A DNA stretch of 64,000 nucleotides. Origin: Cyanobium sp. NS01. Its GTDB lineage: Bacteria > Cyanobacteriota > Cyanobacteriia > PCC-6307 > Cyanobiaceae. Location of the stretch: NCBI RefSeq assembly GCF_014280235.1, contig NZ_CP047940.1:1364001-1428000 (forward strand). Direction: 5' to 3'. The notes under the pieces are model-generated. The model searched no databases. It was not told the DNA's origin and was given only the letters and a program-made list of their open reading frames with translations. Positions 9,453 to 57,183 of the stretch are shown here, one piece after another (position 1 is the stretch's first letter; each line of letters starts with the position of its first letter). The position numbers were made by a program, and so were the translations under genes.

Positions 9453-10220
9453 ATGGCGCCCTGGCAACAACGGGACAAGCTCTGGTGCCTGGAGCCGGCG
9501 GGCAGGCCCCGCGGTCTGATCGAGTTCATCGGGGGCAGCTATCTGGCCGCCAGCCCCCAGCTCAGCTATCGCCGCCTGCTGGAGGCCCTGGCCGCCCAGG
9601 GCTGGCGGGTGCATGCCTGGAGCTACGTGCCGGGCTTCGACCACCAGGCCCAGGCCAATCAGGCCTGGCGCCTGTTTCGGCTCAGCCGGGCCGGCGACGG
9701 CGCCCTGCTGGAATCGGCGGCGGCGGCCCGGCTGCCGGTGCTGCGCCTGGGCCACAGCCTCGGCTGCAAGCTGCACCTGCTGGCGCCGGATGGCGGCCGC
9801 CGCAACGCCGCTCTGGTGGCCCTGAGCTTCAACAACTTCTCAGCCGAGCGCTCCGTGCCGCTGCTGGCGGAACTCGGCCAGCAGCTGCGCTTCCGCAGTG
9901 AGTTCAGCCCCTCGCCGGAGCAGACGCTGAGCCAGATCAGCGCCACCTATCTGCAGCCCCACAACCTGCTGGTGCGCTTCAGCCGCGACGGCATCGACCA
10001 GAGCAGCCGCCTGCTGGGGGTGTTGCAGGCCCGTGCCGGCGACGACTCCACTCTGCTGGAGCTGCCCGGCGACCACCTGACGCCGGCCAGCGGTGGCCTG
10101 CGCAAGCAGGTGCTCGGGGCCTGGGCCGATGATCCGGCCCGCCAGCGGGGCATGGAGCGGCTGGTGGGGCAGATCAGCAGCTGGAGTGACGCCGTGGCCA
10201 CCCGCCTGGCGCGAAGCTGA
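9453..10220 (+). CDS. DUF1350 family alpha/beta-hydrolase-like protein
   Basis: 255 residues from the ATG at 9453, with a GGAGCGAG ribosome-binding stretch upstream. It matches the DUF1350 family of cyanobacteria and plastids: GLIEFIGGSYLAASPQLSYRRLLE near the start, then LGHSLGCKLHLL, a nucleophile-elbow-like GHSLG. SFNNFSAERSVPL, which is characteristic of the family, follows. A later GDHLTP has the position of a catalytic His. The substrate is unknown. It follows prxQ by 30 bp on the same strand and converges with acs. Confidence 0.87.
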   Translation: MAPWQQRDKLWCLEPAGRPRGLIEFIGGSYLAASPQLSYRRLLEALAAQGWRVHAWSYVPGFDHQAQANQAWRLFRLSRAGDGALLESAAAARLPVLRLGHSLGCKLHLLAPDGGRRNAALVALSFNNFSAERSVPLLAELGQQLRFRSEFSPSPEQTLSQISATYLQPHNLLVRFSRDGIDQSSRLLGVLQARAGDDSTLLELPGDHLTPASGGLRKQVLGAWADDPARQRGMERLVGQISSWSDAVATRLARS

Positions 10221-10240
10221 GGGCCTATCGGCCCGGAGCC

Positions 10241-12208
10241 TCACACCCGCAGCTGATCGAGCACGGAGCGGTCCTCCAGGGTGGAGGTGTCGCCACTCAC
10301 CTCCTGGCCCGCCGCCAGGGAGCGCAGGATGCGCCGCATGATCTTGCCGCTGCGGGTCTTGGGAAGGGCATCGCTGAAGCGGATGTCATCGGGGCGGGCG
10401 ATCGGGCCGATTTCCTGGCCCACGTGGGCGCGCAGCTCAGCCACCAGGGCCTGGTCGCCGGCGCGCCCGCTTTCGAGGGTCACGAAGGCCACCACCCCCT
10501 CGCCCTTGAGGTCATCGGGCCGGCCCACCACGGCGGCTTCCGCCACGGCCGGATGGCTCACCAGGGCCGATTCGATCTCCATCGTGCCCAGGCGGTGACC
10601 GCTCACATTGATCACGTCATCGACGCGGCCCATCACCCAGAAGTAGCCGTCGGCATCGCGGCGGGCACCGTCGCCAGCGAAGTAGAGCCAGGAGCCGTCG
10701 GCCGGGCGGATCTCCTCCCAGTAGCTCCTGCGGAAGCGCTCCGGGTCGCCGTGGACCGTGCGCATCATCCCCGGCCAGGGGCGCCGCACCGCCAGGTAGC
10801 CGCCGGCATCGGCGGGCTGAGACACCCCCTCATGGTCCACCACATCGGCCACGATGCCCGGCAGGGGCAGGGTGCAGGAGCCGGGCTTGGTGGGGGTGGC
10901 CCCCGGCAGCGGGCTCACCATCACCCCACCGGTCTCGGTCTGCCACCAGGTGTCCACCACCGGGCAGCGGTTGCCGCCGATCACCTCCCGATACCACATC
11001 CAGGCCTCGGGGTTGATCGGCTCGCCCACCGTGCCGAGGATCCTGAGGCTGCTCATGTCGTGCTGATCGGGCACCTCGCGTCCGCTCTTCATGAAGGCCC
11101 GGATCGCCGTGGGGGCCGTGTAAAAGAGGGTCACCCGGTGCTTCTCGATCACCTCCCAGAAGGCACCCGGCTTGGAAGGACGCGGTGCCCCCTCGTACAT
11201 CACCGTGGTGGCGCCGTTGGAGAGGGGCCCGTAGACGATGTAGCTGTGGCCCGTGATCCAGCCCACATCGGCGGTGCACCAGTGGATGTCGTCCTCGCGC
11301 AGGTCGAAGATCCACTGGAAGGTGAGATGGGCCCAGAGGTTGTAGCCGGCGGTGGTGTGTACCACCCCCTTGGGCTTGCCGGTGGAGCCGGAGGTGTAGA
11401 GCACGAACAGCCGGTCTTCGCTGGCCATCGGCTCGGCCGGGCAGCTGTCGGCCTGGGGATCCACCAGCTCCTGCCACCATTCATCCCGCCCCGGCTCCAT
11501 GGCGCAGTTCTCGCCCGTGCGCCGCACCACCAGCACATGCTCAACGCTGGGGGCGGCACCGCCCGCCAGGGCCGCATCCACCGCCGGCTTGAGGGCCACG
11601 GGCTTGTCCTTGCGGAAGCCGCCGTCGGCGGTGATCACCAGCTTCACGTCGCCGTCGATCAGCCGGTCGCGCAGGGCCTCGGCCGAGAACCCCCCGAACA
11701 CCACCGAATGGGGTGCCCCGATGCGAGCGCAGGCCAGCATGGCGATGGCCGCCTCCGGCACCATCGGCATGTACAGGGCCACCAGATCGCCCTTGCCGAT
11801 GCCGAGGGCCTTGAGGGCATTGGCCGCCCGGCACACCGCCCCATGCAGCTCGCGGTAGCTGAAGCGGCGGGTATCGCCGGGCTCTCCCTCCCAGATCAGG
11901 GCCGTCTTGTCGGCCCGGGGCCCCGCCAGGTGGCGGTCGAGGCAGTTGTAGCTGAGGTTGGTGCGGCCACCCTCGAACCAGCGGGCAAAGGGCGGATCGC
12001 TCCAGTCGAGCACCGTGTGGAACGGCTCGAACCAGTGCAGGTGCTCGCGGGCCTGCCGGCCCCAGAAGCCATCCGGATCCGCCTCCACCTCGGCCACGAG
12101 ATCGCGGTAGGCCTGCATGGAACCGATCCCAGCGCTGGCGGCCAGCTCTGCCGGCGGCGCAAAGACCCGCTCCTCGTGGAGCACCGATTCGATCGTGACC
12201 TCAGACAT
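10241..12208 (-). CDS. acs: Acetyl-CoA synthetase
   Basis: 655 residues from the ATG at 12208. It makes acetyl-CoA from acetate, ATP and CoA through acetyl-AMP, as a cytoplasmic salvage route. The N-terminal ACS domain ([22 protein letters not shown]) is followed by the AMP-binding P-loop [20 protein letters not shown], the acetate-pocket segment [19 protein letters not shown] and WWQTETGG. The C-terminus contains [12 protein letters not shown], whose lysine is the regulatory acetylation site in this family. Full length. It starts 19 bp from a divergent small gene, so the promoters overlap or lie inside that gene. Confidence 0.98.
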
Positions 12209-48483: not shown

Positions 48484-50574
48484 ATGGGCCACGCCACCGC
48501 CACCCTGCCGTTGCTCGAGGGCCAGGGATTGCCTGCCTTCGCCCAGATCACCGCCGATCAGGTGGCCACGGCGATTCCGCTGCTGCTGGAGCAGTTGCAC
48601 AGCGAGCTCAGTGCCCTCGAGACCAACCTGGAGCAGCAGCTCAGCGACCCGAACGCTCCCCTGGCCTGGGAGGCGGTGATGGAGCCCCTGCAGCGGCTGG
48701 GCGAGAGGCTGCGCTGGAGCTGGGGAGCGGTGAGCCATCTCAACGGCGTGTGCAACAGCCCTGAGCTGCGCGAGGCCTACCAGCAACAGCAGGGGGCCGT
48801 GGTGGCCTTCGGCAGCCGGGCCGGCCAGAGCCAGGTGCTCTACCGGGCCCTGGAGCGGTTGGCCGGCAGCGCGCTCGATGCCGTGCAGCGGCGCATCCTC
48901 GAGGCCGAGCGCCGCGACATGCAGCTGCGCGGGGTGGGGCTGGAGGGTACCGAGCAGGAGGCCTTCAATGCCGCCACCGCCGAGCTGGCCAGTCTCGCCA
49001 ACGACTTCGGCAACCACGTGCTCGACGCCACCAACAACTGGAGCCTCAGCCTCAGCAGCGAGGCCGACCTGGCTGGTCTGCCCCCGAGCCTGAGGGAGCT
49101 GCTGGCCCAGGCCGCCCGCGAGGCCGGCGAAGAGGGCTGGCGCATGGGGCTCGACATGCCCAGGGCCATGCCCTTCCTGAAGTTCAGCCAGCGGCGCGAC
49201 CTGCGCGAAACGGTCTACCGGGCCCAGGTGAACCGCGCCTCCAGCGGCGACCTCGACAACCGGCCCCTGATCGAGCGGATCCTGACCCTCAAGCGGCAGC
49301 AGGCCCAGCGCCTGGGCTACGGCTCCTGGGCGGAGGTGAGCCTGGCCACCAAGATGGCCGGCTCGGTGGCCGAGGTGGAGCAACTGCTGGAGGAGCTGCG
49401 CGCGGCAGCCCTGCCGGCTGCCCAGCGGGAGATCGAGGAGCTGCGCGCCTGCGCCCGTCGCCATGGCGCCCCGGAGGCCGAGGATCTGCAGCCCTGGGAC
49501 GTGAGCCACTGGGCCGAAGTGCTGCGGCGGGAGACCTTTGAGCTGGATGCCGAGGCCCTGCGCCCCTGGTTCCCCCTGGAGCAGGTGCTGCAGGGGCTGT
49601 TCGGCCTCTGCCAGCGCCTGTTCGACATCCGCATCGTGAGCACGGAGGGGGAGGCGCCCCTGTGGCACCCGGATGTGCGCTACTTCCGTGTGCTCAGCGG
49701 CAGCAGCGGCGACGAGCTGGCCGGCTTCTACCTCGATCCCTACAGCCGACCGGGCAGCAAGCGCGGCGGCGCCTGGATGGATGAGTGCCTGGGCCGCTCC
49801 CGCAGCCCCGAGGGCACGCCGGTGTTGCCGGTGGCCTATCTGATCTGCAACCAGAGCCCGCCGGTGGGCAGCACTCCCAGCCTGATGACCTTCGACGAAG
49901 TGGAAACGCTCTTCCACGAGTTCGGCCATGGCCTGCAGCACATGCTCACCACGGTGGAGCGTCCCCAGGCGGCCGGCATCAACAACGTGGAGTGGGATGC
50001 GGTGGAACTGCCCAGCCAGTTCATGGAGAACTGGTGCTACGACCGCGCCACCCTGATGGGCATGGCCCGCCACTGGCAGAGCGGTGAACCGTTGCCCGAG
50101 GCGGAATACCACAAACTGCTGGCGGCACGCACCTTCATGGGCGGCAGCGCCACCCTGCGTCAGGTGCACTTCGCCCTCACCGACCTGCGGCTGCACAGCC
50201 AGTGGACCCCCGGCTGCGGCCAGACCCCTGACCAGCTGCGCCGCGACATCGCCCGCACCACCACGGTGCTGGAGCCGATCGCCGAAGACGCCTTTCTCTG
50301 CGCCTTCAGCCACATCTTCGCCGGCGGTTACGCGGCCGGCTACTACTCCTACAAGTGGGCCGAGGTGCTCAGCGCCGATGCCTTCAGCGCCTTCGAGGAG
50401 GTGGGTCTGGAGCAGGAGGACGCGATCGTGGCCACCGGCCGCCGCTTCCGCGACACCGTGCTCAGCCTGGGCGGCAGCCGCTCCCCCAGCGAAGTGTTCG
50501 AGGCCTTCCGCGGCCGCCAGCCCAGCAGTGAAGCCCTGATCCGGCATTCGGGGCTGGCGGCGGCCAACGCCTGA
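48484..50574 (+). CDS. prlC: Oligopeptidase A-like M3 metallopeptidase
   Basis: 696 residues from the ATG at 48484. The zinc motif is EVETLFHEFGHGLQHML near residue 477, with a second ligand region in INNVEWDAVELPSQFMENW. The long N-terminal helical part (GLEGTEQEAFNAATAELASLANDFGNHVLDATNNW) and the C-terminal FSHIFAGGYAAGYYSYKWAEVLSADAF are family hallmarks. It degrades short peptides, including cleaved signal peptides, in the cytoplasm. Full length. Confidence 0.96.
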   Translation: MGHATATLPLLEGQGLPAFAQITADQVATAIPLLLEQLHSELSALETNLEQQLSDPNAPLAWEAVMEPLQRLGERLRWSWGAVSHLNGVCNSPELREAYQQQQGAVVAFGSRAGQSQVLYRALERLAGSALDAVQRRILEAERRDMQLRGVGLEGTEQEAFNAATAELASLANDFGNHVLDATNNWSLSLSSEADLAGLPPSLRELLAQAAREAGEEGWRMGLDMPRAMPFLKFSQRRDLRETVYRAQVNRASSGDLDNRPLIERILTLKRQQAQRLGYGSWAEVSLATKMAGSVAEVEQLLEELRAAALPAAQREIEELRACARRHGAPEAEDLQPWDVSHWAEVLRRETFELDAEALRPWFPLEQVLQGLFGLCQRLFDIRIVSTEGEAPLWHPDVRYFRVLSGSSGDELAGFYLDPYSRPGSKRGGAWMDECLGRSRSPEGTPVLPVAYLICNQSPPVGSTPSLMTFDEVETLFHEFGHGLQHMLTTVERPQAAGINNVEWDAVELPSQFMENWCYDRATLMGMARHWQSGEPLPEAEYHKLLAARTFMGGSATLRQVHFALTDLRLHSQWTPGCGQTPDQLRRDIARTTTVLEPIAEDAFLCAFSHIFAGGYAAGYYSYKWAEVLSADAFSAFEEVGLEQEDAIVATGRRFRDTVLSLGGSRSPSEVFEAFRGRQPSSEALIRHSGLAAANA

Positions 50575-50632: not shown

Positions 50633-51787
50633 ATGCTCCCCCCCCAGCCCCAGCTGCAGCGCCTGGCCCAGCGCTTCGCGATTCCAGGCACGGTCACCAG
50701 CGTGGCGCCCCTGGGCAACGGCAATGTCAACGACACCTACCTGGTGGAGACCTCAGCCGCGCAGCGCTTCGTGCTGCAGCGGCTCAACACCGCCGTGTTT
50801 CGCCAGCCCGAGCTGGTGATGGCCAACATCGTGGCCCTGAACCGGCACATGGCCAGGCGGGCAGGCGCCGGGGGAGCCGGCGCTGAGCGGCAGGATCGGC
50901 CCTGGCAGCTGCCCGAGGCGATCCCGTTGCGCCAGGCGGAGCCACCAGAGCCCCAGGCCGGTGGCGGCAGCCATCACCTCACGGAGCCGAGCGGCAGCTG
51001 GCGGCTGCTGAGCTACGTGGAGGGGGCCACCACCCACGACACCGTGCTCGATCTCGCCCATGCGGCCGAGGTGGGGCGGGCCCTGGGCCGCTTCCACGCC
51101 CAGATCCACGACCTCCCCTGCGAGCAGCTGGCCGACACCCTGGAGGGGTTCCACATCACCCCGGCTTACCTGAGCCAGTACACCGCCGTGTGCCGGCAGG
51201 CCCTGGCCGAGCGGTCAGCCGCGGGGCTGGATCGGGCCGAGCAGGAGTGCGTGGCCTTCGTGGAGCAGCGCCAGGGCCAGGCGGCGGTGCTGGAGGAGGC
51301 CAAGGCCCGGGGACTGCTGCAGCTACGGCCGATCCACGGTGACCCCAAGGTGAACAACGTGATGCTGGACGCCGGCAGCGGCCGCGCCGTGGCCCTGGTG
51401 GACCTGGACACGGTGAAGCCCGGCCTGGTGCACTACGACATCGGCGACTGCCTGCGCTCCGGCTGCAACCCCGCCGGCGAGGAGACCAGCGACCTCCAGG
51501 CGGTGGTGTTCGATCTGGAGCGCTGCGGAGCGATGCTCGGCGGCTACCTGGAGCAGGCCAGGGCCTTCCTCACACCAGCGGATTTCGATCACCTCTACGC
51601 GGCGATGCGGCTGATCAGCTTCGAGCTGGGTCTGCGCTTCTTCACCGACCACCTGGCTGGGGACCGCTATTTCAAGGTGACCCATCGGGGCCACAACCTG
51701 CAGCGGGCCAGGGTGCAGTTCCGGCTCACCGAGAGCATCGAGGCCCAGGAGGCCGAGATCCGTGCCCTGGTGGAGGCCCTGCGCTGA
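50633..51787 (+). CDS. APH-fold sugar kinase, N-acetylhexosamine kinase-like
   Basis: 384 residues from the ATG at 50633. An aminoglycoside-phosphotransferase-type fold: PLGNGNVNDTYLVET with the glycine-rich loop, FVLQRLNTAVFRQPELVMANI, then the catalytic loop RPIHGDPKVNNVMLD and LVDLDTVKPGLVHYDIGDCLR with the metal-binding Asp. These features are shared with bifidobacterial NahK and related kinases, not with antibiotic-resistance enzymes. The likely substrate is a free hexosamine or sugar. Its stop overlaps the next ATG in TGATG. Confidence 0.85.
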   Translation: MLPPQPQLQRLAQRFAIPGTVTSVAPLGNGNVNDTYLVETSAAQRFVLQRLNTAVFRQPELVMANIVALNRHMARRAGAGGAGAERQDRPWQLPEAIPLRQAEPPEPQAGGGSHHLTEPSGSWRLLSYVEGATTHDTVLDLAHAAEVGRALGRFHAQIHDLPCEQLADTLEGFHITPAYLSQYTAVCRQALAERSAAGLDRAEQECVAFVEQRQGQAAVLEEAKARGLLQLRPIHGDPKVNNVMLDAGSGRAVALVDLDTVKPGLVHYDIGDCLRSGCNPAGEETSDLQAVVFDLERCGAMLGGYLEQARAFLTPADFDHLYAAMRLISFELGLRFFTDHLAGDRYFKVTHRGHNLQRARVQFRLTESIEAQEAEIRALVEALR

Positions 51788-52407
51788 TGGCCCGCCATCC
51801 GTTTGAGCTCGTCCCCTTCCCGGACCCAACGCCTACAGACTCCACGGCCTCGGGCCCCACGACCGCGCTCACCAACCCCAAGCTGACGATCCAGGGCCAG
51901 CTGAGCCTCGATCCCCGGGAGCAGGGCGGGCCCGCACTGGAGCTGCTGATCGAGCTCACCACCGCAGCCGGTCACCCCGGCCTCGAAGCGCTGCTGATTC
52001 CAGAAGCGCAGGCCACCCCTGGCGCCCCCCGGCGCGACGGACTGTGGGAGCACACCTGCCTGGAGTGCTTCGTGGCACCGGCAGGCCAGCCCAGCTATCT
52101 GGAGTTCAACCTCTGCCCGGACGGGGCCTGGAACGTCTACGCCCTGGAGGGCTACCGCCAGGGGCTCAAACCCGCCGCCGGCTTCGACGCGCTGCCGTTC
52201 GACTGCCAGCGCAGCGCCTCAGCCCTGAGCCTCAGCCTGCGCTGCCAGCTGCCCGAGGCCTGGGCCACGGCCACGGCCTTCGACTGGCAGGTGAGCGCCG
52301 TGCTGGAGCAGCGCGGTGGCCTGCTCAGCTACTGGGCCCTGCGCCATCCCGCCGGCGCCGCCGACTTCCACGCCAGGCCGCAGTGGACCCAGGCGAGCCC
52401 CCTCTGA
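51787..52407 (+). CDS. DOMON-like domain protein
   Basis: 206 residues from the ATG at 51787. A beta-sandwich of the DOMON-like type used for sugar or heme binding. Characteristic are DGLWEHTCLECFVAPAGQPSYLEFNLCPDGAWNVYALEGYRQG and the closing FHARPQWTQ. There is no signal peptide, so the protein is cytoplasmic. Start and context show coupling to the kinase-like gene (TGATG), and the next ATG follows its stop by one base, so all three genes are likely expressed together. Confidence 0.85.
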   Translation: MARHPFELVPFPDPTPTDSTASGPTTALTNPKLTIQGQLSLDPREQGGPALELLIELTTAAGHPGLEALLIPEAQATPGAPRRDGLWEHTCLECFVAPAGQPSYLEFNLCPDGAWNVYALEGYRQGLKPAAGFDALPFDCQRSASALSLSLRCQLPEAWATATAFDWQVSAVLEQRGGLLSYWALRHPAGAADFHARPQWTQASPL

Positions 52408-52408
52408 G

Positions 52409-53413
52409 ATGACCCACGCTGCAGCTGGCCAAGGCCTGGGCGGCCGCTTCGGGATCGTGGTGGTGCACCGCTCCGCCAGTCCTTATCTGGCGGTGTGCCT
52501 GCAGCAGGCGCGGCGCTGCAACCCCGGCGTGCCGATCGTGCTGGCGGGCGATGCCAGCAACGAGGCCCTGGCGGTGGATCGCTTCGTGGCCATCGACGCC
52601 CTGCCCCGCTCCGACGCGCATCGCCGCTTTCTGCAGGACTACCGCCACCACAGCCCCTCCCAGAGCCTCGAGTGGGAGCGCTTCTGCATTGAGCGCTGGT
52701 TCGTGCTGCTGGCCGTGATGGAACGGGAAGGGCTCGACCAGGTGCTGGCCCTCGATTCGGATGTGCTGCTGTTCTGCGATGCCCGGCAGGAGGCCCTGCG
52801 CTGCAGCCGCTATGCCGTGGCCCTCAGCCACTGGGATGAGCAGCGGGCCCTACCCCACTGCACCTACATCCAGGCCCGCGCCGCCCTGGAGGAGTTCTGC
52901 CGTGAGGTGAGCCGCACCTACGCCAGCGGCAGCCGCCTGGCCGAGCTGATGGCGCGCAACAGCAAACAGCATGGCCGCCACTGGATCTCCGACATGTCGC
53001 TGTGGCGGGCCTGGTGCCGCAGCACCGGCCACGCCGTGCTGATCCGCGAGCGCCTGCCGGCGGATGACGCCCTCTACGACAGCTGCATCGAGCATGTGCG
53101 CGGCTTTGAGGCGGTGAGGCCGCTGCCGCTGCTGGTGCGCCCCTGGAAACGGCTGGTGTTCGAGCAGGGCCAGGCCTATGGGTTCCGCAGGGCCAATGGC
53201 CAGCGGGTGCGGCTGCTCTGCGTGCACTACCACGGTCGCTTCAAGGTGCTGATGGCACGCCATGCCCGGGGGCAGCGCGATGGGCTGCTGGCGGGGCTGC
53301 TGCTGCTGCGCCTCAAGCTGGCCGACCTGCCCCGGAAGCTGGCCCGCCTGCTGGGCAGCCGCCTGCGGCGGCCGCCGGCGCTCAGGAGGGATCGCTCCGC
53401 ACCTGCTCCCTGA
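52409..53413 (+). CDS. Glycosyltransferase-like protein (GT-A type)
   Basis: 334 residues from the ATG at 52409. The start FGIVVVHRSASPYLAVCLQQARRCNPGVPIVLAGD is a Rossmann-like nucleotide-sugar entry, and the metal-binding motif is QVLALDSDVLLFCDA. A later SDMSLWRAW lies where acceptor-site residues occur. No signal peptide, and the C-terminus is basic, with a helix LLAGLLLLRLKLADLPRKLARLLGSRLRRPP that may sit on the membrane. The donor and acceptor are unknown. Its last 32 bases overlap the convergent pyruvyl transferase gene. Confidence 0.8.
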   Translation: MTHAAAGQGLGGRFGIVVVHRSASPYLAVCLQQARRCNPGVPIVLAGDASNEALAVDRFVAIDALPRSDAHRRFLQDYRHHSPSQSLEWERFCIERWFVLLAVMEREGLDQVLALDSDVLLFCDARQEALRCSRYAVALSHWDEQRALPHCTYIQARAALEEFCREVSRTYASGSRLAELMARNSKQHGRHWISDMSLWRAWCRSTGHAVLIRERLPADDALYDSCIEHVRGFEAVRPLPLLVRPWKRLVFEQGQAYGFRRANGQRVRLLCVHYHGRFKVLMARHARGQRDGLLAGLLLLRLKLADLPRKLARLLGSRLRRPPALRRDRSAPAP

Positions 53414-54443
53414 TCAGCGCCACCGAGGCCTCCACGGCCTGGCGCGAGAGCACCAGCATCCGCGCCTGGCTGGCGGCGATCGCCTCAAGGGGACAGGCCT
53501 CGATGCAGCCCTGCATCAGCGCCAGCAGGCTGTCGGGCGTGAGATCTTCGGCTGCAAACAGCAGCGGCCAGCTGATGCGGCCCAGCACCTCGGTGAGCTT
53601 GCCGCCGCCGGCGATCTGGTCCACGGCGATCACCGGCACGCCAGCCGCCAGGCCCAGCAGGGAGCCGTGCAGGCGGGTGGTGAGCACCAGGTCCACCGCC
53701 GCGAACTGGGCCTCGATGCGCTCCCGTGGATTGGTGGCCGAGAGCACGGTGTCGATCGGCTGCACCAGCCCTGGCTGGCGCTCCAGCACCTCGGTGAACA
53801 GCGCCTCCACGGCCGCAGAGCGATCGCGACCGAGGCCGTAATCCTTCTGGCGACCGCGCAGACAGAGGCCGATGCGGGCCTCGGCCAGGCTGGCGGGCCG
53901 GGAGCGCTCCAGGGGAGGCTCACAGTGGCTGATGGCCAGATCGAAGCGGCCAGGGTTGACGCCCTCTCCTGCGCCTGGGCTGCCAGGGGCCTCCGCGCCG
54001 TCGCGGGCCACCACGCCATCGAGTTGGCGGTTGAGGGGCTGCTGGCTCTGCAGCAGCGACACGCCGGCGGCCAGCTTGCGCGTGTGACCACTGGCCGCCA
54101 GCAGGCGCCGCATGCGCTTGGTCTGCACCAGGGGGCCGCAGACGAACACCAGGGTGCTGAGCTGGGGAGCCAGGGCCGAGGGATCCGGGGTGGGTCGATG
54201 GGCCGGGCCCGCATGGCTGGGGTGGGACAGCACGCTGTGCTCAATCCCGGCCCGGGTGAGGGCCGCCGAGAGGTTGTCCACCGCCAGCAGATCCCCCAGG
54301 GTGGCGCCGCGGGGCCAGCTGCCCCACCAGATCTGGGCGATCGGTCCGCAGCCCTGGGGTTGCAGCCAGGGCAGGCCTTGCAGCCAGGGCAGGCCTTGCA
54401 GCCAGGCCTGCCCCCGCAGCCAGTGGCCGAGGCGATCAGCCAT
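53382..54443 (-). CDS. Polysaccharide pyruvyl transferase family protein
   Basis: 353 residues from the ATG at 54443. Typical parts are IWWGSWPRGATLGDLLAVDNLSAAL with the family start, VFVCGPLVQTKRMRRLLA, FAAVDLVLTTRLHGSLLGLAAGVPVIAVDQIAGGGKLTEVLG, and a final AIAASQARM helix. The family adds pyruvate ketals to wall or capsule sugars in some members. Here the acceptor is unknown. An N-terminal WLQGLP repeat (residues 14-27) arises from a DNA tandem repeat. The start overlaps the folB stop by 8 bp. Confidence 0.86.
   Translation of the reverse strand: MADRLGHWLRGQAWLQGLPWLQGLPWLQPQGCGPIAQIWWGSWPRGATLGDLLAVDNLSAALTRAGIEHSVLSHPSHAGPAHRPTPDPSALAPQLSTLVFVCGPLVQTKRMRRLLAASGHTRKLAAGVSLLQSQQPLNRQLDGVVARDGAEAPGSPGAGEGVNPGRFDLAISHCEPPLERSRPASLAEARIGLCLRGRQKDYGLGRDRSAAVEALFTEVLERQPGLVQPIDTVLSATNPRERIEAQFAAVDLVLTTRLHGSLLGLAAGVPVIAVDQIAGGGKLTEVLGRISWPLLFAAEDLTPDSLLALMQGCIEACPLEAIAASQARMLVLSRQAVEASVALIREQVRSDPS
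54360..54412. repeat. 18-bp tandem repeat in the pyruvyl transferase gene
   Basis: TTGCAGCCAGGGCAGGCC occurs twice in tandem, followed by a partial third copy, giving the peptide repeat WLQGLP twice and then WLQ. It looks like a recent slippage duplication in a nonconserved N-terminal region. Confidence 0.8.
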
Positions 54444-54873
54444 GGGGGAACCCCGCAGCTCCAGATGCGCTCTCAGCGGCGGCGGGCCAGCGGCGCTGGC
54501 GCCGCACGGCCACCTGGCCGCCGAAGCCGGGCACCGGCGGCGAGCACTTGCGCAACTCCAGCTGGATCGGCACGGCGCCATAGAGCTGCTCAGCCCGCTC
54601 GAGGATGCGCTCGCTGAACTGCTCCAGAGTGAGGCAGACCGTGGCGCGGGCCAGCTGCTGCAGGGCCGTGATCAGGAGGCTGTAGTCGAGGCTGGCGGCC
54701 AGGTCGTCCTCGCGGGCGGCCCGGCTCAGGTCAGCCGCCAGGGTGAGGTCAAGCTCAAACCACTGGCCCAGCTGCCGCTCCTGCTCCAGCACTCCCACGT
54801 GGGCCCACAGCCGCAGGCCGCGGACCAGGATCTGATCGCTATAGACGTCTGCTGCCCTCGCCTCTGCGCTCAC
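54436..54873 (-). CDS. folB: Dihydroneopterin aldolase
   Basis: 145 residues from a GTG at 54873. It cleaves dihydroneopterin to 6-hydroxymethyl-dihydropterin in folate synthesis. Signature parts are [54 protein letters not shown], including the catalytic Glu in VGVLEQER. The SLDYSLL part is near the usual DTVDYSAL. Basic C-terminal residues are extra. The start overlaps the proA stop (GTGA), so it is coupled to proA. Confidence 0.93.
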
Positions 54874-56271: not shown

Positions 56272-57183
56272 TCATCTCAATCCGCCGGGCTGCAGCCGCT
56301 CGAAGGCCAGGCGCGCCGCCCCCAGCCGGCCGGCGCCGTTGCCCAGGGCACAGCGTTCAATGCGCAGATCGTGGCGGCTCACGGCCAGCACCCGCTCCTG
56401 AACCTGCTCCCACACCGCCGGCAGAAAGTGGTGGCTGGCGCCGCTGAGGCCGCCACCGAGCAACACCAGCTCCGGGGTGAGCACATAGAGCAGGGAGCAG
56501 AGACCGATGCCGAGCAGGCGCCCATAGCGGTGCCATACCGCCAGGGCCTCGGCATCGCCGGCGTCGGCCAGACGGCAGAGCTCCCGCGGATCAAGCGGGC
56601 TCAGACGGCCCAGACCGGCAATGCTGCAATAGCTCTCCAGGGATCCCCGGTTGCCGCTTTTGCAGGGCGGGCCATCGGGCTGCAGGCCGATCAGGCCGGG
56701 CTCGGCGGCCGCGCCGGCGTGCCCGGTGAACAGCCGCCCGCCCAGCAGCACCGCCCCCCCCACCCCCGTGCCGAGGGTGAGCAGCAACACGTCGGCAGCA
56801 CCGCGGGCGGCGCCGTGCCAGAGCTCACCGATGGCGGCACAGTTGGCGTCGTTGGCCAGGGTCACGGGACGCTGCAGCAGCGGCTCCAGCCAGTCGGCCA
56901 GGGGCACATCCCGCCAGCCGGGCAGGTTGATGGCAATGCTGGCGCGGCGGCAGGAGCGGTCGCTGGGCCCCGGATGACCGATGCCCACCCGCTCGGCCAG
57001 CCGTTGCGGATCCAGCGCTTCCACCGCCTCCTGGATCGCCATCGTCACGGCGCCGGGCATGGCCGGCTGGGGGGTGGGGCAGACGGCCTCGGCCAGCAGG
57101 TCGCCAGCCTCGCTGAAGCGGCCCAGCTTGATGGCACTGCCGCCCAGATCCACCCCGATCGCCTGCCGTCCGGAGCCCGCCAT
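56272..57183 (-). CDS. ROK-family sugar kinase lacking the zinc ligands
   Basis: 303 residues from the ATG at 57183. ATP-binding [14 protein letters not shown], catalytic Asp112 in [20 protein letters not shown], and [15 protein letters not shown] are intact. At the place of the ROK zinc site (GEIGHI...CxCGxxGCLE) the sequence reads [26 protein letters not shown]. The histidine is Leu164, and only Cys174 of the three cysteines remains (Ser176, Ser181). Glucose or another hexose is the likely substrate, alongside the separate glk. It is the gene after tamB, 1 bp away. Confidence 0.92.

Follow-up and report, generated by a model that had tools for sequence, protein, structure and literature searches.

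A conserved cyanobacterial gene pair, encoding an NahK-like kinase and a DOMON-like protein, that probably helps the cell to reuse wall sugar

A stretch of 64,000 nucleotides from the genome of Cyanobium sp. NS01 (contig NZ_CP047940.1, positions 1,364,001–1,428,000; hereafter the window) encodes an NahK-like sugar kinase with an APH fold and, directly behind it, a DOMON-like protein related to CBM9_2. The kinase gene (384 amino acids, aa) occupies positions 50633–51787 of the window and the DOMON-like gene (206 aa) positions 51787–52407, both on the plus strand. The two genes are a real, conserved two-gene module in changing surroundings, and the pair probably helps the cell to reuse wall sugar. 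According to the best reading, for which the chances are about even, the pair salvages N-acetylglucosamine (GlcNAc) or a close relative as a sugar-1-phosphate for GlmU, with the DOMON-like protein as a sugar-handling partner. A third, glycosyltransferase-like gene of 334 aa (52409–53413, plus strand) is a genus-level insertion outside the conserved pair. A preliminary description, made from the letters of the window, had combined all three genes into one pathway, and as a whole that interpretation is partly supported.

The three open reading frames (ORFs) and their junctions were confirmed as first described. The kinase and DOMON-like ORFs have one base in common, within a TGATG stop/start overlap at 51785–51789 (plus strand), and a gap of one base separates the DOMON-like stop codon from the ATG of the third gene. 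Overlaps of one and four bases are common between bacterial genes, so this overlap is unremarkable by itself; its conservation is the special part. Both members of the pair are real genes, since matches to the kinase occur in 81 genomes of the same family besides the genome of origin (25–71% identity) and matches to the DOMON-like protein in 54 (21–61% identity). The host genome is a single contig of 2.75 Mb.

The pairing was followed in 121 genomes of the family, the genome of origin included, 76 of which are at least 90% complete, in 194 genomes drawn from the whole cyanobacterial phylum and in 41 loci (40 fetched ones and the window). Within the family the kinase was found in 82 genomes and the DOMON-like gene in 55, the DOMON-like counts being lower bounds (genome G026, initially missed, has such a gene at locus L136). 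A kinase match on the same strand adjoins 52 of the 55 DOMON-like matches; the three exceptions are a 77% complete genome with no kinase match, a genome with the two genes 4.6 kb apart and a genome with the genes on different contigs. None of the 76 genomes that are at least 90% complete has a DOMON-like match without a kinase match. In the phylum draw the kinase is present in 37 genomes, the DOMON-like gene in 34 and both in 29; the genes lie less than 1 kb apart on the same strand in 27 of the last, 1.2 Mb apart in one of the remaining two and on different contigs in the other. An overlap of one or four bases joins the two frames in 21 of the 28 loci, the window included, in which the kinase end was located (30 loci were read); the start codons were picked by a script rule and four of the 28 are doubtful (gaps of 164, −154, −283 and −41). 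No third gene is widespread at the pair: one cluster, an ATP-binding cassette (ABC) ATPase by eye and of a generic family, occurs in 13 of the 41 loci and every other cluster in seven at most. The distances among the kinases and among the DOMON-like proteins correlate at 0.91 (28 loci); no weight was given to this value because it is uncorrected for species relatedness.

Some loci hold further genes around the pair. At locus L112 (G236), an ORF of 191 aa, acetyltransferase-like by eye only, lies between the kinase and DOMON-like genes (9880–10455 as oriented). A protein of about 505 aa (cluster c4) is encoded upstream of the kinase in seven family loci and a protein of about 230 aa (cluster c10) downstream in six, the loci concerned being L123, L124, L133, L135, L136, L142 and L143; both are unknown proteins, and the single example of each that was scanned has no NCBIfam match.

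The kinase belongs to the APH family (Pfam, 4e-25). A phmmer search of the PDB at E ≤ 1 returned three distinct sequences, all of them N-acetylhexosamine kinases (NahK; best 6.6e-52), which bears out the first label of this gene as NahK-like; AmgK was not among these matches, its presence in that PDB library being unchecked. The catalytic motif HGDPKVNN (residues 235–242; 51335–51358, plus strand) has the form HxDxKxxN in all 40 kinases read, and the metal-binding-type motif DLDT (residues 257–260; 51401–51412, plus strand) has the form DxD(T/S) in the same number. By a hand count, the window kinase is identical to NahK at the positions aligned with D208, N213, D228, T231, R306 and Y317, which we take to be catalytic and sugar-contact residues of NahK. 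The NCBIfam homoserine kinase model also matched (7.3e-8), its 31.7 bits lying far under the cut-off of 271. The kinase is filed as NahK-like, outside the bifidobacterial lnp pathway.

The DOMON-like protein appears from profile comparisons to be a remote relative of CBM9_2, in keeping with its first label as a DOMON-like protein of possible sugar binding; its relatives in Acinetobacter are annotated as ‘DOMON-like domain-containing protein’. The window protein reached the cut-off of no Pfam or NCBIfam model and had no match to PF16011 (CBM9_2); across 22 DOMON-like members, four matched PF16011 at E ≤ 1, below the cut-off (best E 0.07). An hhalign comparison of the DOMON-like profile A4 with profile A6, built from seven CBM9_2 proteins, gave a probability of 91.7 and an E of 7.7e-7 over 57 columns, covering the first conserved block. 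The mainly cyanobacterial profile A1 aligned with A6 over 147 columns, including the C-terminal DFH block (probability 47.9, E 1.9e-4), and A4 aligned with a single Hymenobacter protein at a probability of 76.5; two unrelated control profiles scored 0.5 and 0.9. The best PDB sequence match of the DOMON-like profile is 4jpq, a weak one (E 0.03); 4jpq groups with Pfam CBM9_2, its match with the CBM9_2 protein of Hymenobacter reaching 4e-33. The structure model of the DOMON-like protein is mostly β, and its mean predicted local distance difference test (pLDDT) score of 43.3 and predicted template modelling (pTM) score of 0.47 are too weak to settle the fold. With this low-confidence model, Foldseek placed 4jpq first (E 0.022–0.024, TM 0.26–0.33). 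VIA-align gave Z 4.9 for 4jpq (root mean square deviation (rmsd) 4.5, 144 aligned) and Z 4.8 for CBM9 7nwn (rmsd 4.1, 130 aligned); antibody domains tie with 4jpq and score Z 4.5–5.1, the same range as the CBM9-type matches.

An alignment of 17 DOMON-like proteins from cyanobacteria and Pseudomonadota has invariant residues D84, L86, W87, T90, C91, E93, F95, Y104, E106, N108, P111, Y118, R124, A184, F194 and H195, plus M1 and L8; H187 and D193 are nearly invariant. The most conserved block is DGLWEHTCLECF (residues 84–95; 52036–52071, plus strand), and a conserved C-terminal block, ADFH (residues 192–195; 52360–52371, plus strand), aligns with PDFH of CBM9_2. No signal peptide is seen by eye. 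According to the part of PMC8280721 consulted, CBM9 modules bind sugars preferentially at the reducing end. A free reducing end is likewise required by an anomeric kinase. The DOMON-like gene of genome G559 (L164/L166) is a single open frame whose profile match is split in two, possibly through an insertion in the gene.

Outside the cyanobacteria, related genes lie beside amino-sugar genes in two phyla. A row of genes in Prevotella sp. oral taxon 299 (L184, 1871–6519) begins with a nagB-like gene and a nagB-like/PIG-L fusion gene, followed by an NahK-like kinase gene and a CBM9_2 gene, the last starting 13 bases after the kinase gene; the PIG-L part is a de-N-acetylase joined to the second nagB-like domain, and the kinase is 32% identical to that of the window. 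From its gene content this row is best read as an amino-sugar cluster. In Hymenobacter tibetensis a sugar-phosphate nucleotidyltransferase gene precedes the kinase and CBM9_2 genes. The preliminary description had remarked that the trio has no nucleotidyltransferase; such an enzyme need not be in the operon, because one adjoins the kinase in this Bacteroidota relative and the housekeeping GlmU, general in peptidoglycan-making bacteria, could serve in cyanobacteria. The Bacteroidota adjacency rests on few records: eight records of a plasmid collection hold the kinase, and two of these also hold CBM9_2, adjacent in both. Three further Bacteroidota strains have the two genes in different records, and a Persicobacter record and two Subdoligranulum records with the kinase have no CBM9_2 match.

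Among 299 Pseudomonadota genomes, 18 have the DOMON-like gene, one of them (G346) by a weak match only (2.8e-4). NamZ, a peptidoglycan exo-β-N-acetylmuramidase, adjoins the DOMON-like gene in 15 of these 18 (loci L150–L164), with one opposite-strand gene between the two in L152 and L163; on the other side, 13 of the 15 loci have a divergent gene that is tyrS-like by eye. Two of the NamZ proteins were tested against Pfam and support this identity, with matches at 2e-72 and 1.2e-70. A search of genome contigs with the DOMON-like protein returned only two Psychrobacter loci. NamZ itself occurs in 12 of the 194 phylum genomes, all outside the class of the window genome; the window genome has no match, and NamZ was therefore rejected as its source of sugar.

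In the family, the kinase accompanies the glycoside hydrolase family GH3 (PF00933). Among the genomes at least 90% complete, GH3 is present in 60 of 60 with the kinase and in six of 16 without it (Fisher p 8e-9, this and the following tests ignoring shared ancestry); counted by genus, the values are 27 of 27 and three of seven (p 7.5e-4). The PF00933 matches include a second type of GH3 without the NagZ motif, such as the second GH3 gene of the window genome (L178). When the NagZ-like type alone is counted, the figures become 59 of 60 and six of 16 (p 8e-8), or 26 of 27 and three of seven by genus (p 0.003); the kinase genome with the second type only is G087, judged by a match of 3.2e-35 with the same profile range as L178. 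Over all 121 genomes, 78 have both kinase and GH3, four the kinase alone, 24 GH3 alone and 15 neither (p 7e-6); the corresponding NagZ-like counts are 77, 5, 24 and 15 (p 2e-5).

The main GH3 protein of the window genome carries KHFPGHGDTSSDSH, a form of KH(F/I)PGxGxxxxD(S/T)H, which we take to be the NagZ motif; the second GH3 protein has no such motif, and six of the seven GH3 loci read have it. The main protein matches NCBIfam PRK05337 at 4e-52 and 177 bits, under the 207-bit cut-off, and the GH3 β-N-acetylglucosaminidase 6k5j in the PDB at 4.9e-66; its best PDB match, 3sql (1.2e-124), is named only GH3. On these grounds it is predicted to be of the NagZ type. In the part of PMC12903740 consulted, almost all cyanobacteria are said to have a NagZ-type enzyme with the diagnostic motif, and the kinase for freed GlcNAc in endosymbionts is described as ‘probably’ ROK-family. 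For Anabaena, the part of PMC10936207 consulted reports the release of anhydro-muropeptide sugars and states that neither a NamZ nor a NagZ orthologue is found; the corresponding parts of two sugar- or chitin-related papers, PMC8938411 and PMC10651935, name no cellular GlcNAc kinase. Taken together, the contexts in Bacteroidota and Pseudomonadota and the GH3 distribution in the family converge on amino sugars as the likely field of action of the pair.

In the proposed salvage route, the NagZ-type GH3 enzyme would free an amino sugar, either from products of peptidoglycan turnover or from amino-sugar oligomers taken up by the cell. The kinase would then phosphorylate the free sugar in the cytosol on its anomeric (C1) oxygen, GlcNAc being the first candidate, and the uridylyltransferase of GlmU would turn the resulting GlcNAc-1-phosphate into uridine diphosphate (UDP)-GlcNAc, bypassing deacetylation and resynthesis. 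The DOMON-like protein, a putatively cytosolic, single-domain CBM9 relative, would bind the free reducing-end sugar and might then deliver or present it, sense and report it, or interconvert its anomers. A salvage role involving sugar phosphorylation had been suggested in the preliminary description and is supported; the substrate, the C1 position, the hand-over to GlmU, the cytosolic location and the action of the partner are the parts we infer.

Several observations weigh against this reading. Because NahK enzymes accept several hexoses, homology leaves the substrate of the kinase unfixed. The window also encodes a ROK-family sugar kinase (56272–57183, minus strand), about 4 kb downstream of the pair, which is a competing or complementary candidate for a GlcNAc kinase; its best NCBIfam matches are the TIGR00744 glucokinase family and the PRK13310 GlcNAc kinase, both below cut-off. 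The pairing has gaps: by simple ORF picking, the ORF after the kinase is the DOMON-like gene in 26 of 40 loci, the 14 misses being partly picking errors and partly true absence. The kinase lacks a detected DOMON-like gene in eight of 37 phylum genomes and in 28 of 82 family genomes (where DOMON-like detection is a lower bound), and five phylum genomes have weak DOMON-like matches and no kinase. The kinase was found in none of 19 Pseudomonadota genomes with the DOMON-like gene (17 tested with the genome of origin as a positive control, plus two Psychrobacter). Most of the plasmid-collection records concerned hold one gene without the other: the kinase is absent from 19 of the 21 with CBM9_2, which are mostly haloarchaeal, and CBM9_2 from six of the eight with the kinase. 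As to GH3, four of the 82 kinase genomes (74–82% complete) have no match, or five if G087 is counted, and GH3 without the kinase is seen in six genomes that are at least 90% complete. The absences are clustered, with four genera (at least 90% complete) lacking both genes, and the joint absence may reflect general gene loss. The phylum-wide overlap of GH3 with the kinase (37 of 37) is weak evidence, since GH3 is near universal there (183 of 194).

The third gene is a local newcomer, part of a genus-level glycan cassette whose place behind the pair is incidental. It was found in three of the 121 family genomes, all of one genus, and is supported as a real gene because two relatives have homologues that are 76–77% identical. 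At E ≤ 1 its protein matches nothing in Pfam or NCBIfam, glycosyltransferase family models included, and it has no match in phage records; the structure model (pLDDT 36.7) is unusable. A DxD-type motif, DSD, lies at 52754–52762, and both of its aspartates are conserved in the four aligned proteins. The polysaccharide pyruvyl transferase-family gene that faces it (53382–54443, minus strand) overlaps it tail to tail by 32 bases and has a Pfam PS_pyruv_trans score of 27.2 bits, narrowly above the cut-off of 25.3. This gene is present in the same three of 41 loci as the third gene: in the window genome, G072 and G099, the two sit between the DOMON-like gene and a gene that is folB-like by eye (54436–54873, minus strand). 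In the nearest branch (L127, L131 and L144) the insertion-free order is M3 peptidase, kinase, DOMON-like gene and then the facing folB and proA; the pair persists without the third gene even in G030, a member of the same genus.

On these distributions a conserved three-gene pathway, the form that the preliminary description had given to its glycan proposal, was rejected, and the facing pyruvyl transferase, mentioned there, was rejected as evidence for the pair: as part of the local insertion it is uninformative about it. The proposed coupling is supported for the first two genes. The gene-order comparison that had been called for finds the kinase and DOMON-like genes kept together, and the third gene fails the refuting condition set there, separate occurrence in related strains, since the pair persists without it.

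The insertion has some features of its own. In the sister genomes G072 and G099 the third gene and the pyruvyl transferase gene are separated by a gene whose protein has sub-threshold similarity to PMT_2 (L125, 11434–12915; L126, 11286–12944) and which is missing from the window; either the cassette was trimmed in the window genome or it was extended in G072 and G099. The only relatives of the third protein in the plasmid collection are two hypothetical proteins, of Methylocystis and Sinorhizobium (L145 and L146, near 8001; 27–29% identity), and the Methylocystis gene has glycosyltransferase, phosphomannomutase and FkbM methyltransferase genes nearby. As for the other neighbours, an M3-type oligopeptidase gene, named by eye and matched in six of the 41 loci, precedes the pair at 48484–50574 (plus strand), and thrB-, ndhD-, folB- and proA-like genes were read by eye in the window.

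The insertion bears on the first alternative, along the lines of the preliminary description: the kinase would activate a hexose or hexosamine for the building of glycans, the pair would belong to a pathway for exopolysaccharide or lipopolysaccharide, and in this genus its clients would be the third gene and the pyruvyl transferase. The one-base spacing behind the DOMON-like gene makes co-expression in the window genome probable, and both the surroundings of the distant Methylocystis relative and the PMT_2-like protein of the sister genomes would suit such a pathway; however, with the third gene confined to three family genomes and no recurring glycan-assembly gene beside the pair in the loci read, this explanation is judged unlikely. 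A comparably low standing, marginally lower in our estimate, is given to the view that the kinase acts at C1 on N-acetylmuramic acid (MurNAc), or on both MurNAc and GlcNAc, in the manner of AmgK, an unrecognised MurNAc-1-phosphate uridylyltransferase being encoded elsewhere. AmgK is an APH-family anomeric kinase, and NamZ, the Pseudomonadota neighbour of the DOMON-like gene, frees MurNAc; but the window kinase is NahK-like, with no other kinase among its PDB matches at E ≤ 1, and NamZ has no match in the window genome and was found in the phylum draw only outside its class.

A non-sugar role is very improbable. In this explanation the kinase would now phosphorylate a small alcohol other than a sugar, and the DOMON-like protein would bind that ligand or a cofactor. 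Homoserine and choline kinases are among the APH-fold kinases, the homoserine kinase model did match, and DOMON domains elsewhere bind heme or sugars; the similarity to NahK is nevertheless far stronger, the counterparts of NahK R306 and Y317 are conserved, and the neighbours of the homologues in other phyla are amino-sugar genes. Least probable of all is an adjacency by inherited synteny without a functional link, since whole neighbourhoods are indeed common to close relatives but across the phylum the two genes, often with overlapping frames, stay together in numerous unlike neighbourhoods, and two Bacteroidota again have a kinase gene beside a CBM9_2 gene.

A bolder view of the partner protein can also be taken. 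It is conceivable, if rather unlikely, that single-domain DOMON-like and CBM9_2 proteins are a family of amino-sugar mutarotases or anomer-selecting chaperones and not passive binders. In cyanobacteria and Bacteroidota such proteins would supply anomeric kinases with GlcNAc or MurNAc in the correct anomeric form, and in Pseudomonadota they would take over the anomer that NamZ releases. The idea is kept because of the gene neighbourhoods, the apparent lack of a signal peptide and the invariant polar set (D84, T90, C91, E93, E106, N108, R124 and H195, with H187 and D193 nearly so). To our knowledge, a mutarotase with the DOMON-like/CBM9_2 fold would be a new fold for this activity. If true, the idea would also point to a function of PDB 4jpq and of those proteins whose sole annotation is ‘DOMON-like’ or ‘carbohydrate-binding family 9-like’.

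The literature searches turned up no description of the pair, or of this kinase in cyanobacteria. The salvage reading would give a defined subset of cyanobacteria a second GlcNAc route, at C1, and the gene neighbourhoods provide a functional hint for DOMON-like and CBM9_2 single-domain proteins across three phyla. The pair could be a new variant of known sugar-salvage chemistry, in which the partner protein is the potentially surprising part.

Among known systems, the closest enzymes to the window kinase are NahK/LnpB of bifidobacteria (PDB 4wh1 and 4ocj): the homology covers most of the window kinase, and the catalytic and metal motifs are intact, as presumably are the sugar-contact positions. 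The part of PMC8106489 consulted describes NahK and an lnp operon with a phosphorylase, GalT, GalE and a transporter; such neighbours do not recur at the cyanobacterial pair, where only the DOMON-like gene is widespread. The DOMON-like family and CBM9_2 (PF16011; 4jpq, a putative carbohydrate-binding protein) have blocks around C-x-E-x-F and DFH in common, but the DOMON-like family differs in having its own invariant residue set and a sub-cut-off Pfam match. In AmgK–MurU and NagZ–NagK recycling a cytosolic kinase acts on a sugar freed from peptidoglycan, as proposed for the pair; the window kinase is instead NahK-like and has a dedicated partner, and the ROK-type kinase is a separate gene. GalK–GalM offers an analogy only, that of an anomeric kinase encoded with a partner able to supply the right anomer; no homology to these proteins was found, none having been specifically tested, and by this analogy a mutarotase activity of the DOMON-like protein would be a guess.

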